Shown here: in pieces, positions 34 through 60,703 of the stretch
How positions within the stretch are numbered: position 1 is the first letter of the stretch
How the letters are laid out: each line of letters begins with the position of its first letter
Translations under genes and position numbers: made by a program
Notes under the pieces: generated by a model
Seen by the model: only the letters and a program-made list of their open reading frames with translations
Databases searched by the model: none
What the model was told of the DNA's origin: nothing
NCBI RefSeq assembly: GCF_012271785.1
Contig: NZ_JAAWVT010000002.1
Span: 1-64,000, forward strand
DNA: 64,000 bases
Direction of reading: 5' to 3'
From: Paeniglutamicibacter terrestris
Lineage (GTDB): Bacteria; Actinomycetota; Actinomycetes; Actinomycetales; Micrococcaceae

Positions 34-2214
34 CTAGTGATCCTCCAAGATCAGCAGCGTTCCGGTCGCGCGGGTCATGGCGACATAACGATCGACGGCA
101 CCGGTGATTCCCGTGCCGAAGTCTTGCGGGTTCACCACAATGACCAGATCAAATTCCAGTCCCTTCGCCAACACCGGAGTCAGCGAGGCGACCCGCGGAC
201 GTGGCGCGAAGTTCGGGTGCCCAATGACGGCCGCGTGCCCCGTGGGATGCTGGACCAACCACGCCTCAAGGCGCACCGACAGATCCGCGACACTGCCTCG
301 TTCAACCGGCGCACCACCGGTGCGGATGGATTGCGGCACGTTGGCATCGGGTAGTTCGGCGGTGATGGCGGCCCGGGCCTGAACCATGATCTCGGCCGGG
401 GTGCGGTAGTTGATGGACAAGGTGGAGACGCTGATGCGCGTCAAACCGATCCGGGTGAGGCGTTCTTCCCACGACTCGTCAAACCCCTCCCGCGCCTGTG
501 CGCGGTCCCCGACGATGGTGAAGGAACCCGACGGGCAGCGGCGCAGCAGCATCTGCCATTGAGCATCACTGAGCTCCTGCGCCTCATCCACCACGATGTG
601 CGTAAAGGGACCGGCCAACGGATCCGCACTTTCCTCAGGCAAATCGGCTGCCTGGTCAAGTTTTTCGGCCATATCCTCCCCGCGGAGCATCGAGCTGACG
701 AGTAATTCCGAATCATCGGCAAGGATAGCTTCCTCGATGACGGCGGCCATCTCCTGGCGTCTGGCCGCTAGTTCCGTCCTGCGGCGAGCCCTGCGTGCCG
801 AGGCACCCGAGTCGCCCAAACGCTGCCGTGCGGCATCCAACAGCGGAAGATCGGCATCCGTCCAGGCCAGCCCGTCACTGCGTTGTAACGAGCGAATCTG
901 GGCTTCGCTCAGCCAGGGTGCGCACATGGCCAGGAATGTGGGAATAGTGAACATGCCGGCGACGATGTTGGCCGGTTCCAGCAGTGGCCACGCCGCCGAA
1001 AGTGCGGTGCTCAGTTCCGGATGAGTCGCCAGCGCGGCACGGGCCATGTCGATGGGCGTTTCGGCATCAAGTTTGTCGACCAAGATGTCTAGCAGTGCCT
1101 CGTGGACCGCATCCCGGGCCTCATTGTGCGGAGTTCCGTCCTCCGGCGCGGAGAAGGCCTCGGCCCAGTCACGCGCATCGAGCTCCAGTTCCGCCCACTC
1201 GGTGTTGATGATGGTGCTCTGCGCGGGTGGCTCCTGGAAGAAACCGACGGCCGTGGAGATCGCCGAGACCATCTCGACACTGGACTTCAGCGCTGCGAGT
1301 CCTCGATCAGCTTCGGGCACGGCGGTTTCACCGGCGGGGTCGAGGTCGCTGAGCGTGCAGACTCGAACTCCTTCTTCACCCAGTCCGGGCAGGACATCGG
1401 AAATGTAGGCAAGATATGGCTGGTGCGGGCCGATGAAAAGTACCCCACCCAGATGATGACCAACGCGCGGATCCGAATAGAGCAAATAAGCCGCGCGGTG
1501 CAGAGCCACAACGGTTTTGCCCGTGCCCGGCCCTCCGTCGACCACCAAGGCGCCGCGCGAGGGTGCCCTGATGATCGCATCCTGGTCGGCCTGAATGGTG
1601 CTCACCACATCACGCATCTTTCTCGACCTGTTAACTCCCAGACTGGCGATGAACGCCGACTGATCATCAAGCGCAGCATTGGATTCGAGACGATCGGCGG
1701 TGAAGACCTCGTCCCAATAGTCACTAATGAGTCCCGCGGACCAGCGGTACCGGCGTCGGGCGAGAAGACCCATCGGATGAGCATGAGTGGCAGCGAAGAA
1801 GGGGGCCGCGGCGGGGGAGCGCCAGTCGATCAGTAAGCGACGCCCGTCATCATCGGTGAGCCCGAGTCGACCCACGTAGATCGGTTCCGTACCGTCGGCA
1901 GCCTCCATCCGGCCCAAACATAAATCAAGCCCGAAACGGCTCAGAGTGCGCAGGCGGGTGGCCAGCCGGTGCACCTCCATATCTCGTTCCAGTGCCTCCT
2001 GACCATGTGCTCGCGGACCCTTTCGGGCACGATCAAGGGCGGTGGAGAGTTCGGAGAGTCGTTGTTTGAGGGTCGACGCGATGGCGGAAAAATGCTGTTC
2101 GTCGCCGCTAATCAATGATGGAGCAGATTTCGCGGTCCCGATGAACTCTGGGATAAAGGCGCTTTCGGGGAATGTAAGGGTGGGCTTGGTGGCAGTTGTT
2201 GGTCGCTGAGTCAT
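34..2214 (-). CDS. helR: HelR/HelD-like RNA polymerase-recycling ATPase (UvrD-type)
   Basis: Superfamily 1 helicase-fold protein of about 726 residues. Family knowledge: HelD/HelR proteins pull stalled or drug-bound RNA polymerase off DNA, and actinobacterial HelR lowers rifamycin sensitivity. Visible: an N-terminal helical segment with coiled-coil character (about 40-95), Walker A GGPGTGKT near 227-234, a Walker B-like VDEAQELS, a VGDRAQ motif, INYRTP, and C-terminal GLEFD and YVAMTRAT motifs typical of UvrD-like proteins. The start is placed at the ATG of MTQRP. An upstream in-frame start would run through the rifamycin-associated element at 2271-2289, so it is unlikely. Nearest relatives could equally be annotated HelD; the RAE favours HelR. 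Confidence 0.88.
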   Translation of the reverse strand: MTQRPTTATKPTLTFPESAFIPEFIGTAKSAPSLISGDEQHFSAIASTLKQRLSELSTALDRARKGPRAHGQEALERDMEVHRLATRLRTLSRFGLDLCLGRMEAADGTEPIYVGRLGLTDDDGRRLLIDWRSPAAAPFFAATHAHPMGLLARRRYRWSAGLISDYWDEVFTADRLESNAALDDQSAFIASLGVNRSRKMRDVVSTIQADQDAIIRAPSRGALVVDGGPGTGKTVVALHRAAYLLYSDPRVGHHLGGVLFIGPHQPYLAYISDVLPGLGEEGVRVCTLSDLDPAGETAVPEADRGLAALKSSVEMVSAISTAVGFFQEPPAQSTIINTEWAELELDARDWAEAFSAPEDGTPHNEARDAVHEALLDILVDKLDAETPIDMARAALATHPELSTALSAAWPLLEPANIVAGMFTIPTFLAMCAPWLSEAQIRSLQRSDGLAWTDADLPLLDAARQRLGDSGASARRARRRTELAARRQEMAAVIEEAILADDSELLVSSMLRGEDMAEKLDQAADLPEESADPLAGPFTHIVVDEAQELSDAQWQMLLRRCPSGSFTIVGDRAQAREGFDESWEERLTRIGLTRISVSTLSINYRTPAEIMVQARAAITAELPDANVPQSIRTGGAPVERGSVADLSVRLEAWLVQHPTGHAAVIGHPNFAPRPRVASLTPVLAKGLEFDLVIVVNPQDFGTGITGAVDRYVAMTRATGTLLILEDH

Positions 2215-23794: not shown

Positions 23795-23866
23795 GCCCCC
23801 CTAGCTCAGTGGTAGAGCGCGTTCTTGGTAAGAACGAGGTCACCGGATCGATTCCGGTGGGGGGCT
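23795..23866 (+). tRNA. tRNA-Thr (GGT), copy 1
   Basis: 72 nt. GCCCCCC/GGGGGGC acceptor, anticodon stem CGTTC/GAACG around TTGGTAA (anticodon GGT), T-arm ACCGG/CCGGT. CCA is not encoded. Identical in sequence to the copy at 25027. Confidence 0.97.
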
Positions 23867-23938
23867 CTGAATGGAATGACCCGCGCCTGAATCTTCTTGA
23901 AAAAGATCCTGATGCGGACGTGGGTATTCACCATTCGT

Positions 23939-25026: not shown

Positions 25027-25098
25027 GCCCCCCTAGCTCAGTGGTAGAGCGCGTTCTTGGTAAGAACGAGGTCACCGGATCGATTCCGGTGGGGGGCT
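25027..25098 (+). tRNA. tRNA-Thr (GGT), copy 2
   Basis: Same 72-nt sequence as the tRNA at 23795, including the upstream TAGAGTATT-TCTCGTT block that differs by one base. It is therefore a duplication with its own -10 element (25010-25015). Confidence 0.97.
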
Positions 25099-25104
25099 CT
25101 GAAA

Positions 25105-59417: not shown

Positions 59418-59462
59418 CGAACCCGGTACCAACCTCCTTTTGGGGGATTGGTACCGGGTTCG
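59418..59462 (+). terminator. Terminator after rplA
   Basis: 15-bp stem CGAACCCGGTACCAA with its complement and an additional inner CCTCC/GGGG pairing. Confidence 0.8.
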
Positions 59463-60201: not shown

Positions 60202-60229
60202 TTGTGCGTATGCCCTTGAATGATAGAGT
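60202..60229 (+). promoter_or_regulatory. Possible promoter of the 6C-like RNA
   Basis: TTGTGC (60202-60207), 16 nt, TAGAGT (60224-60229), putting the start near 60236 at the head of the first hairpin. Confidence 0.45.
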
Positions 60230-60235
60230 TGATTC

Positions 60236-60414
60236 GTCACGATTTGATCGTGACGGGTGATTCGTTCACCATGTGCTCCATGGCGGAGACCCCAAGCCCC
60301 GCCCCGAGCACATTACCGCAGCAATGCGTTCCCCCAAGTTGCATTGCTGCACAGGTAGGCTCCTCCCTTCCGCTATCCCCCAAGTTGCGGAACCCGAGGG
60401 GCCTACCGCTTTTA
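60236..60414 (+). ncRNA. 6C-like RNA with three C-rich-loop hairpins
   Basis: Hairpin B (60318-60350) has a 10-bp stem, GCAGCAATGC/GCATTGCTGC, and loop GTTCCCCCAAGTT. Hairpin C (60354-60407) has a 12-bp outer and 6-bp inner stem and loop TATCCCCCAAGTT, and ends in CTTTT. This is the two C-loop hairpin layout of actinobacterial 6C RNA (B11 in mycobacteria). Upstream, hairpin A (60271-60313) also exposes CCCCAAG, and two small hairpins (60235-60255, 60256-60270) precede it. The 5' end is inferred from the promoter match. Confidence 0.8.
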
Positions 60415-60458: not shown

Positions 60459-60487
60459 TTGTTCCGTCGCTGGCACACTGCTAGGCT
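60459..60487 (+). promoter_or_regulatory. Promoter of rplJ-rplL
   Basis: TTGTTC (60459-60464), 17 nt, TAGGCT (60482-60487). The transcription start would lie near 60494, at the edge of the L10 leader. Confidence 0.65.
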
Positions 60488-60494
60488 TGTGAAT

Positions 60495-60600
60495 ACCGAA
60501 GACCGTCGGTCGAGAATTACTGCTTATGCGGTGAGACTCTGAAAGTCCCACAAAGGACGACCTGCGCAGGTGAACGAAGTGAATTTCTCGCAAGTATTTG
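60495..60600 (+). ncRNA. L10 leader (ribosomal protein L10 autoregulatory RNA)
   Basis: Contains the conserved leader parts: the CCGAAGACCG-type opening and the highly conserved GACCTGCGCAGGTGAACGAAG kink-turn region (60559-60579), where L10(L12)4 binds to repress rplJL. Spacing to rplJ is as expected in actinobacteria. Confidence 0.85.
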
Positions 60601-60609
60601 CGTGCTTTC

Positions 60610-60639
60610 CGCCCCGTGCATCTGCATGGGGCGTTTTTT
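60610..60639 (+). terminator. Attenuator hairpin in the rplJ leader
   Basis: CGCCCCGTGCA and TGCATGGGGCG form an 11-bp stem directly followed by TTTTTT, after the L10 leader and before rplJ, so it can stop transcription when L10 is in excess. Confidence 0.8.
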
Positions 60640-60703
60640 ATGTCAGTACTCCTGGCCGGGCTGGATCGACTGGTTATCAGATCTATACCCCGGAAGGAGT
60701 GTT

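Follow-up and report, generated by a model that had tools for sequence, protein, structure and literature searches.

What occupies the long gap between rplA and rplJ in Paeniglutamicibacter terrestris? The window analysed here is a 64-kb stretch of this bacterium (NZ_JAAWVT010000002.1:1-64,000; GC 60.9%), taken from assembly GCF_012271785.1, hereafter the source genome. The genes of the region are ordered secE, nusG, rplK, rplA, a gap of ~1.3 kb, rplJ and rplL; the identity of rplJ was confirmed with Pfam, whereas secE, nusG, rplK, rplA and rplL carry presumptive names given on the basis of their translations. Within the gap, at 60236-60414 of the forward strand, lies a stretch that the original prediction described as an extended 6C-like RNA, with three hairpins presenting CCCCAAG loops to G-rich mRNA starts. 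This element is referred to below as the type 1 RNA.

Structure and conservation of the type 1 RNA

Folding bears out the three predicted hairpins, in sequence as well as in position. The type 1 RNA folds at -89 kcal/mol, compared with a mean of -50.95 (sd 4.11) for shuffled sequences (z -9.26), and none of 200 shuffles was as stable. Hairpin A, the 'third' hairpin, is found at exactly the predicted 60271-60313, with the expected 8-bp outer and 5-bp inner stems and its CCCCAAG loop at 60290-60296; covariation had been proposed as its test, and 6 of its 12 pairs (helices 3 and 4) show double changes. Hairpin B (60318-60350) presents the loop TTCCCCCAAGT (60329-60339, with CCCCAAG at 60332-60338), and double changes are seen in 4 of 11 pairs. 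Hairpin C (60354-60407) presents TCCCCCAAG (60376-60384, with CCCCAAG at 60378-60384), and has double changes in 7 of 15 pairs (helices 6 and 7). To these the fold adds two hairpins beyond those originally named, the 5' hairpin P1 (60236-60254; 91.5% of cells paired, double changes in 4 of 9 pairs) and the small P2 (60256-60270), whose stem, GGTGA/TCACC, is unchanged in all 13 aligned rows and is therefore uninformative on covariation. All five are on the forward strand. Both copies of CCCCCAAGTT in the 64-kb window lie within the type 1 RNA; 0.18 occurrences would be expected, and only 2 of 100 shuffled sequences reach two.

Conservation was assessed on an alignment (A1) of 13 sequences, from which L008, identical to L007, and the divergent copy of genome G002 (L029) were excluded. 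The structure pairs in 96.6% of the alignment cells, compared with 90.6% after shuffling; double changes are found in 21 of 52 pairs (8.5 after shuffling), and the covariation score is 0.266 (0.151 after shuffling), with none of 500 shuffles reaching the observed value on any of the three measures. The number of further pair types is unexceptional (37 vs 35.5, with 169 of 500 shuffles as high), and structures slid along the alignment pair in 36-47% of cells. The loop words of hairpins A, B and C, either CCCCAAG or CCCCCAAG, are invariant in all 13 copies, and the loops are thus fixed while the stems change. Stems that vary around letter-identical loops, with a loop common to other RNAs, name the likely active word of the molecule. 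Given this covariation and its presence in each of the 15 genomes searched in the genus (below), the type 1 RNA is beyond chance; it is a real multi-loop RNA. No model in Rfam 15 matches it, a plasmid search with the region gave no match, and no description was found in the openly licensed literature among the best-ranked matches.

A putative promoter can be read at 60202-60229 of the forward strand, with a -35 element TTGTGC (60202-60207), a 16-nt spacer and a -10 element TAGAGT (60224-60229), and transcription is expected to start at ~60236. The TTG of the -35 element and a TG-N-TA arrangement at the -10 element are invariant in 13 of 13 relatives in the upstream alignment. At the other end, the long outer stem of hairpin C is followed by GCTTTTA and looks like an intrinsic terminator, with the expected 3' end of the RNA in the T-rich tail at 60408-60414 of the same strand. 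A consensus promoter scan reported no promoter-like site in the rplA-rplJ gap, 60202-60229 included, and hairpin C is absent from the output of a terminator scan with a loop limit of 8. As the scans report neither end, we infer both ends, and with them a free-standing transcript, from the sequence itself.

Distribution of the type 1 RNA

Within the genus, BLAST recovered the type 1 RNA from 14 of 15 genomes, and a covariance model, R1, from all 15; 13 of these 15 supplied the sequences on which R1 was built. The locus is fixed, with rplJ adjoining the RNA in all 14 BLAST loci and in G002, and with rplA inside the retrieved DNA in 10 of the 14 BLAST loci. Among 395 genomes of the family R1 matches 17, namely the 15 of the genus, G043 (genus g30; 55.1 bits), where the RNA likewise lies between rplA and rplJ, and G360, a match of 23.2 bits that was discarded since CCCCAAG is absent. 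Among 297 genomes of the order only the source genome is matched; the family and order draws were run with stricter filters, losing weak matches. In L353, R1 also matched a stretch downstream of rplJ, at 24.1 bits, which proved to be a long GC-rich hairpin without the CCCCAAG loop, and R1 scores of ~24 bits are therefore distrusted, including that of locus L289 (24.9 bits). A pattern scan of genome contigs was set aside as too loose, as it returned 117 stretches, mostly from unrelated phyla; two of these (L041 and L044) gave no R1 match.

For a view beyond the genus, rplJ was compared, together with 1.5 kb of upstream DNA, in 28 genomes from 25 other genera. Genera g30, g11 and g23 each contribute one genome with a trio of C-loop hairpins ahead of rplJ, on stems that differ from those of type 1 and with loops that include ATGCCCCCAAGAC, CCCCAAAG and CCTCCCCCCCAAATTT; a strict scan recovered two of the three hairpins in g30, and all three in g11 and g23. 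Run without filters, R1 scores these RNAs at 60, 34.4 and 33.8 bits, respectively, with E-values of 4.1e-9 for g11 and 6.1e-9 for g23. In the remaining 25 genomes no C-loop set lies within 1,300 bases upstream of rplJ (242 in one genome), the strict scan finding one stray C-loop hairpin in each of two of them. The upstream sequence reached rplA in 8 of the 28 genomes, three with the RNA and five without, and the rplA-rplJ gap was incompletely seen in the other 20. On the rplJ tree the presence of the RNA, carried by 9 of 34 rows, needs four changes. This patchy distribution may reflect loss, repeated arrival, or unseen copies.

Further RNAs with CCCCAAG loops

The loop of the type 1 RNA recurs elsewhere in the genome, on different stems. 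The clearest relative, type 2, lies at C26:40058-40231 on the minus strand of the source genome (locus L270, ~559-732, minus strand), and folds as a four-way junction with an 18-bp outer stem enclosing three CCCC(C)AAG hairpins. Type 2 was found in 14 of 395 family genomes, all in this genus (14 of its 15). In an alignment (A2) of 11 sequences from 10 of these 14 genomes, excluding G005 (the same as G006), G007, G008 and G014, double changes are present in 24 of 54 pairs, and none of 500 shuffles was as high on any of five measures. In the source genome the RNA is preceded by a HisKA_3 kinase gene, with a nitroreductase gene on the other side. A palindrome, TGAGGNNNCCTCA, precedes the outer stem by ~140 nt in every copy but one (14 of 15), only the second copy of G013 lacking it; at L270 the palindrome reads TGAGGTTACCTCA. 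This count covers all 15 copies, while the upstream alignment omitted L334, L328 and L333. In G002, which lacks type 2 by the model, a stretch with other stems (L295) has two copies of CCCCCAAG, one clearly in a hairpin loop, and stands behind a kinase gene that by eye looks like that of type 2.

Tandem CCCCAAG pairs spaced 25-55 apart number 154 in the 15 genomes, compared with 58 for a reversed control (7 vs 0 in the source genome), in a count that includes some coding stretches and scores a triplet as two pairs. When 20 tandem stretches were hand-picked for folding, at least two copies lay in hairpin loops in 11; the nine that failed include L284, the second type 2 copy of G013, and L295, with one looped copy each. 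Sets of three or two CCCCAAG hairpins are found behind an IMPDH-like gene (L277, L283, L291) and near a CsbD gene (L289 of G001, 671-830 counted on the minus strand). Others lie between kinase and Hpt genes (L280, L281, L292 and, in the source genome, L273). In the case of L273 (C26:89060-90370), a strong hairpin with a CCCCCAAG loop is present at ~655-790, between kinase-like and Hpt-like frames; two such hairpins form in its relatives L281 and L292, and one in L280.

How widespread looped copies are in the source genome was addressed at 100 of its 150 CCCCCAAG sites. A hairpin-loop position is supported at p up to 0.02 for eight of the 100, where 2 would be expected, and types 1 and 2 account for four of the eight, which argues for a small set of multi-loop RNAs rather than a genome-wide motif; the loop of type 1 hairpin C gave p 0.07 in this simple site-by-site test. 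A group of CCCCAAG multi-loop RNAs in the genus is therefore probable. Conservation of the loop in every copy of the FAA-hydrolase element, considered at one point, was dropped, CCCCAAG occurring three times in G011 (L286) and once in the source genome (L254). As a separate observation, G014 has several occurrences of CCCCAAGGACAATAATCCCG...GGTGGCCCCCAAG; in L282 this sequence adjoins a frame that by eye is transposase-like, and it may belong to a mobile element.

Possible partners of the loops

6C RNA (RF01066) is taken here to be the same as mycobacterial B11, in agreement with what is reported on B11. The account of type 1 that we favour, to which we would give an even chance, is that of a free-standing, multi-site small RNA whose CCCCAAG loops pair with G-rich mRNA starts. 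A promoter of its own in the rplA-rplJ gap would drive a transcript of ~180 nt that ends with hairpin C and presents three identical loops on stems that are free to vary. Where these loops meet CUUGGGG-like stretches at mRNA starts, translation would be hindered, and any one loop may be sufficient, as with mycobacterial 6C/B11 and the Listeria RNA LhrC. The C-rich loops of B11 are reported to base-pair at ribosome-binding sites, and one of them, whichever it is, is enough for eccB4 (PMC10470900). LhrC is reported to have several members per genome, each with three redundant CU-rich, C-containing sites that serve one target (PMC4132741). LhrC differs in that it belongs to another phylum, has a UCCC motif, carries one of its sites in single-stranded form, and binds Hfq.

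Counts of complementary sites speak against the pairing account, in that there is no clear excess before ATG over the control. Across the 15 genomes, CTTGGGG 3-10 bases before ATG (CTTGGGGN{3,10}ATG) gives a raw count of 1185, compared with 1101 for a GTTGGGG control (GTTGGGGN{3,10}ATG), and in the source genome alone the counts are 75 and 75. A few real targets could be hidden in such near-equal numbers. Sites of CTTGGGGG stand before a plausible start in 8 of 100 cases, compared with 23 of 100 for the sense motif, many of whose sites before starts probably lie inside genes. No target stands out among the 100 CTTGGGGG sites, the one tidy candidate being L196 (C1:210115-211315), where CTTGGGGGCATG at ~601 falls at a plausible gene start. 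In addition, the potential pairing core amounts to 7-8 bases only.

The loops may instead be read by a protein. CsrB and RsmZ titrate CsrA from mRNAs, and by the same logic an RNA-binding protein may recognise looped CCCCAAG, with multi-loop RNAs titrating it off mRNAs. We consider such a sponge somewhat unlikely for type 1. It would suit the occurrence of one loop on differing stems in several RNAs (at least two looped copies in 11 of the 20 hand-picked stretches), the closed junction from which type 2 presents its three loops, the near-equal counts of complementary and control sites ahead of start codons, and the place of type 2, after a kinase gene and downstream of the conserved palindrome; the copy behind the histidine kinase gene would then be an arm driven by a two-component system. 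The repeated identical loops and this kinase-linked arrangement are also the points of likeness to CsrB and RsmZ, whereas the type 1 loops are CCCCAAG, not GGA, and the repeated GGA loops that, with a CsrA partner, mark membership of Csr/Rsm are absent. There is, however, no protein candidate, and single CCCCCAAG hairpins are few outside types 1 and 2 and their kin, so that the sponge protein would have no clear set of mRNA sites. Moreover, nine of the 20 hand-picked stretches fold without two motif loops, and 6C/B11, the close C-loop precedent in actinobacteria, acts through pairing.

A broader proposal, which we think quite unlikely, is that a lineage of actinobacteria has an RNA control circuit of its own, in which RNAs of differing stems and neighbours share CCCCAAG, often three per molecule, and are read by one trans-acting partner. 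That partner would be either a protein that binds the loops or mRNAs targeted in common. If it holds, type 2 behind its kinase gene and conserved palindrome would link the circuit to a two-component system, as an actinobacterial counterpart of Gac/Rsm. Actinobacteria are not known to have the usual RNA chaperones, and type 1 bears on the question of how small RNAs reach their targets there. Together, the fixed loops of type 1 and the related multi-loop RNAs elsewhere in the genus suggest a little-known group of regulators that act through several sites.

Relation to 6C RNA

With respect to ancestry, type 1 could be a true 6C RNA that has moved and diverged, hairpins B and C being the 6C hairpins and A an addition. 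This reading is compatible with a multi-site regulator, and we find it rather doubtful. Type 1 and 6C/B11 share tandem actinobacterial hairpins with C-rich loops, the last of them terminator-like, and the 6C arrangement of two adjacent C-loop hairpins with a terminator-like second is seen in B and C, with A making three. They differ in that type 1, at ~180 nt, has three C-loop hairpins and two 5' hairpins and lies beside rplJ, in a window without a match to the Rfam 6C model, and in that its loops, CCCCAAG or CCCCCAAG in all 13 rows, are not the runs of about six C that characterise 6C.

The original prediction called for a run of the 6C model on the region, and there it did not hold: no match was obtained in the window at the gathering cut-off or at E up to 5, nor in the whole source genome at E up to 1. 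The label 'extended 6C-like' does better for the group upstream of rplJ. The g11 RNA scores 49.6 bits, narrowly above the 47-bit cut-off, with its hairpins 2 and 3 aligned to the model and its CCCCCAAG hairpin as the extra one; the g30 RNA scores 34.3 bits, below the cut-off, and the g23 RNA has no match at E up to 1. R1 in turn recovers the g11 and g23 RNAs at the E-values given above. However, stretches in G002, G003 and G005 of the family score up to 40.7 bits with the 6C model (the other values being 37.4 and 33.5), candidates that were rejected because their folds, judged by eye, are not two C-loop hairpins. The g11 score is therefore a narrow pass and the 6C link suggestive only; the group may fairly be described as 'extended 6C-like', short of proof of membership.

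Known 6C loci offer a second comparison. In a draw of 296 genomes of the class, 141 have a 6C match, 111 of them above the cut-off, and the best 30 of the 141 loci, 23 of which come from one family, were inspected together with the 110 nt before each match. Two C-loop hairpins are found in 29 and three in one, so that the extra hairpin is no general 6C trait as sampled. CCCCAAG is absent from all of the best 30 matches and their immediate surroundings, and neither rplA nor rplJ appears in the flanking DNA retrieved with them, both of which count against 6C descent. The third loop and the position by rplJ that the original prediction singled out thus hold up. Six frames flanking 6C loci were scanned, and yielded one HAD hydrolase and one weakly ParA-like frame, below cut-off. 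In mycobacteria and in S. coelicolor, 6C is reported to lie near Ms1 (PMC6582537). The site between rplA and rplJ differs from the places of the 6C loci seen. Type 1 nevertheless represents a possible bridge to 6C, a small RNA widespread in actinobacteria.

Two loci of other genera were noted in passing. L376 (G019, genus g6) has at ~1411-1601 three tandem C-loop hairpins, two with CCCCAAG, scores 46.3 bits with the 6C model, and lies ~270 kb from rplJ. L378 (G018, genus g5) carries, on its minus strand, a pair of C-loop hairpins in the 6C arrangement that score below the 6C cut-off, at 38.9 bits, and is possibly a diverged 6C in this family.

Relation to rplJ

The position of type 1, on the same strand and upstream of rplJ wherever it is found, raises the prospect of a cis-acting element, in which type 1 would form the upstream portion of the rplJ leader and control L10/L7/L12 synthesis. 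This is very unlikely, however, because rplJ appears equipped with signals of its own downstream of type 1: a promoter-like block, TTGTTC-17-TAGGCT (60459-60487, forward strand), and an L10-leader-like element at 60478-60648 of the same strand. The latter is the sole match of the L10 leader model (RF00557), at 23.5 bits against a cut-off of 44; the model has no match over type 1, and the two elements are alike as upstream neighbours of rplJ but separate. Type 1 likewise has its own promoter-like block and terminator-like end, its multi-loop relatives adjoin unrelated genes, and in 25 of 28 genomes of other genera rplJ stands without the set in the upstream DNA seen, including five of the eight in which rplA was reached. 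That type 1 is no RNA gene at all, but a coding stretch or chance hairpins, is scarcely credible: open frames of 90 aa (forward strand) and 118 aa (reverse strand) cross the region, but one- and two-base gaps between relatives break both, for which reason the coding reading is rejected, and the double changes preserve pairs.

Two minor features of the window may be added. A long stem-loop directly 3' of rplA (59418-59462) is terminator-like but has no T tail, and two tRNA-Thr (GGT) genes of identical sequence lie 1.2 kb apart, at 23795-23867 and 25027-25099.
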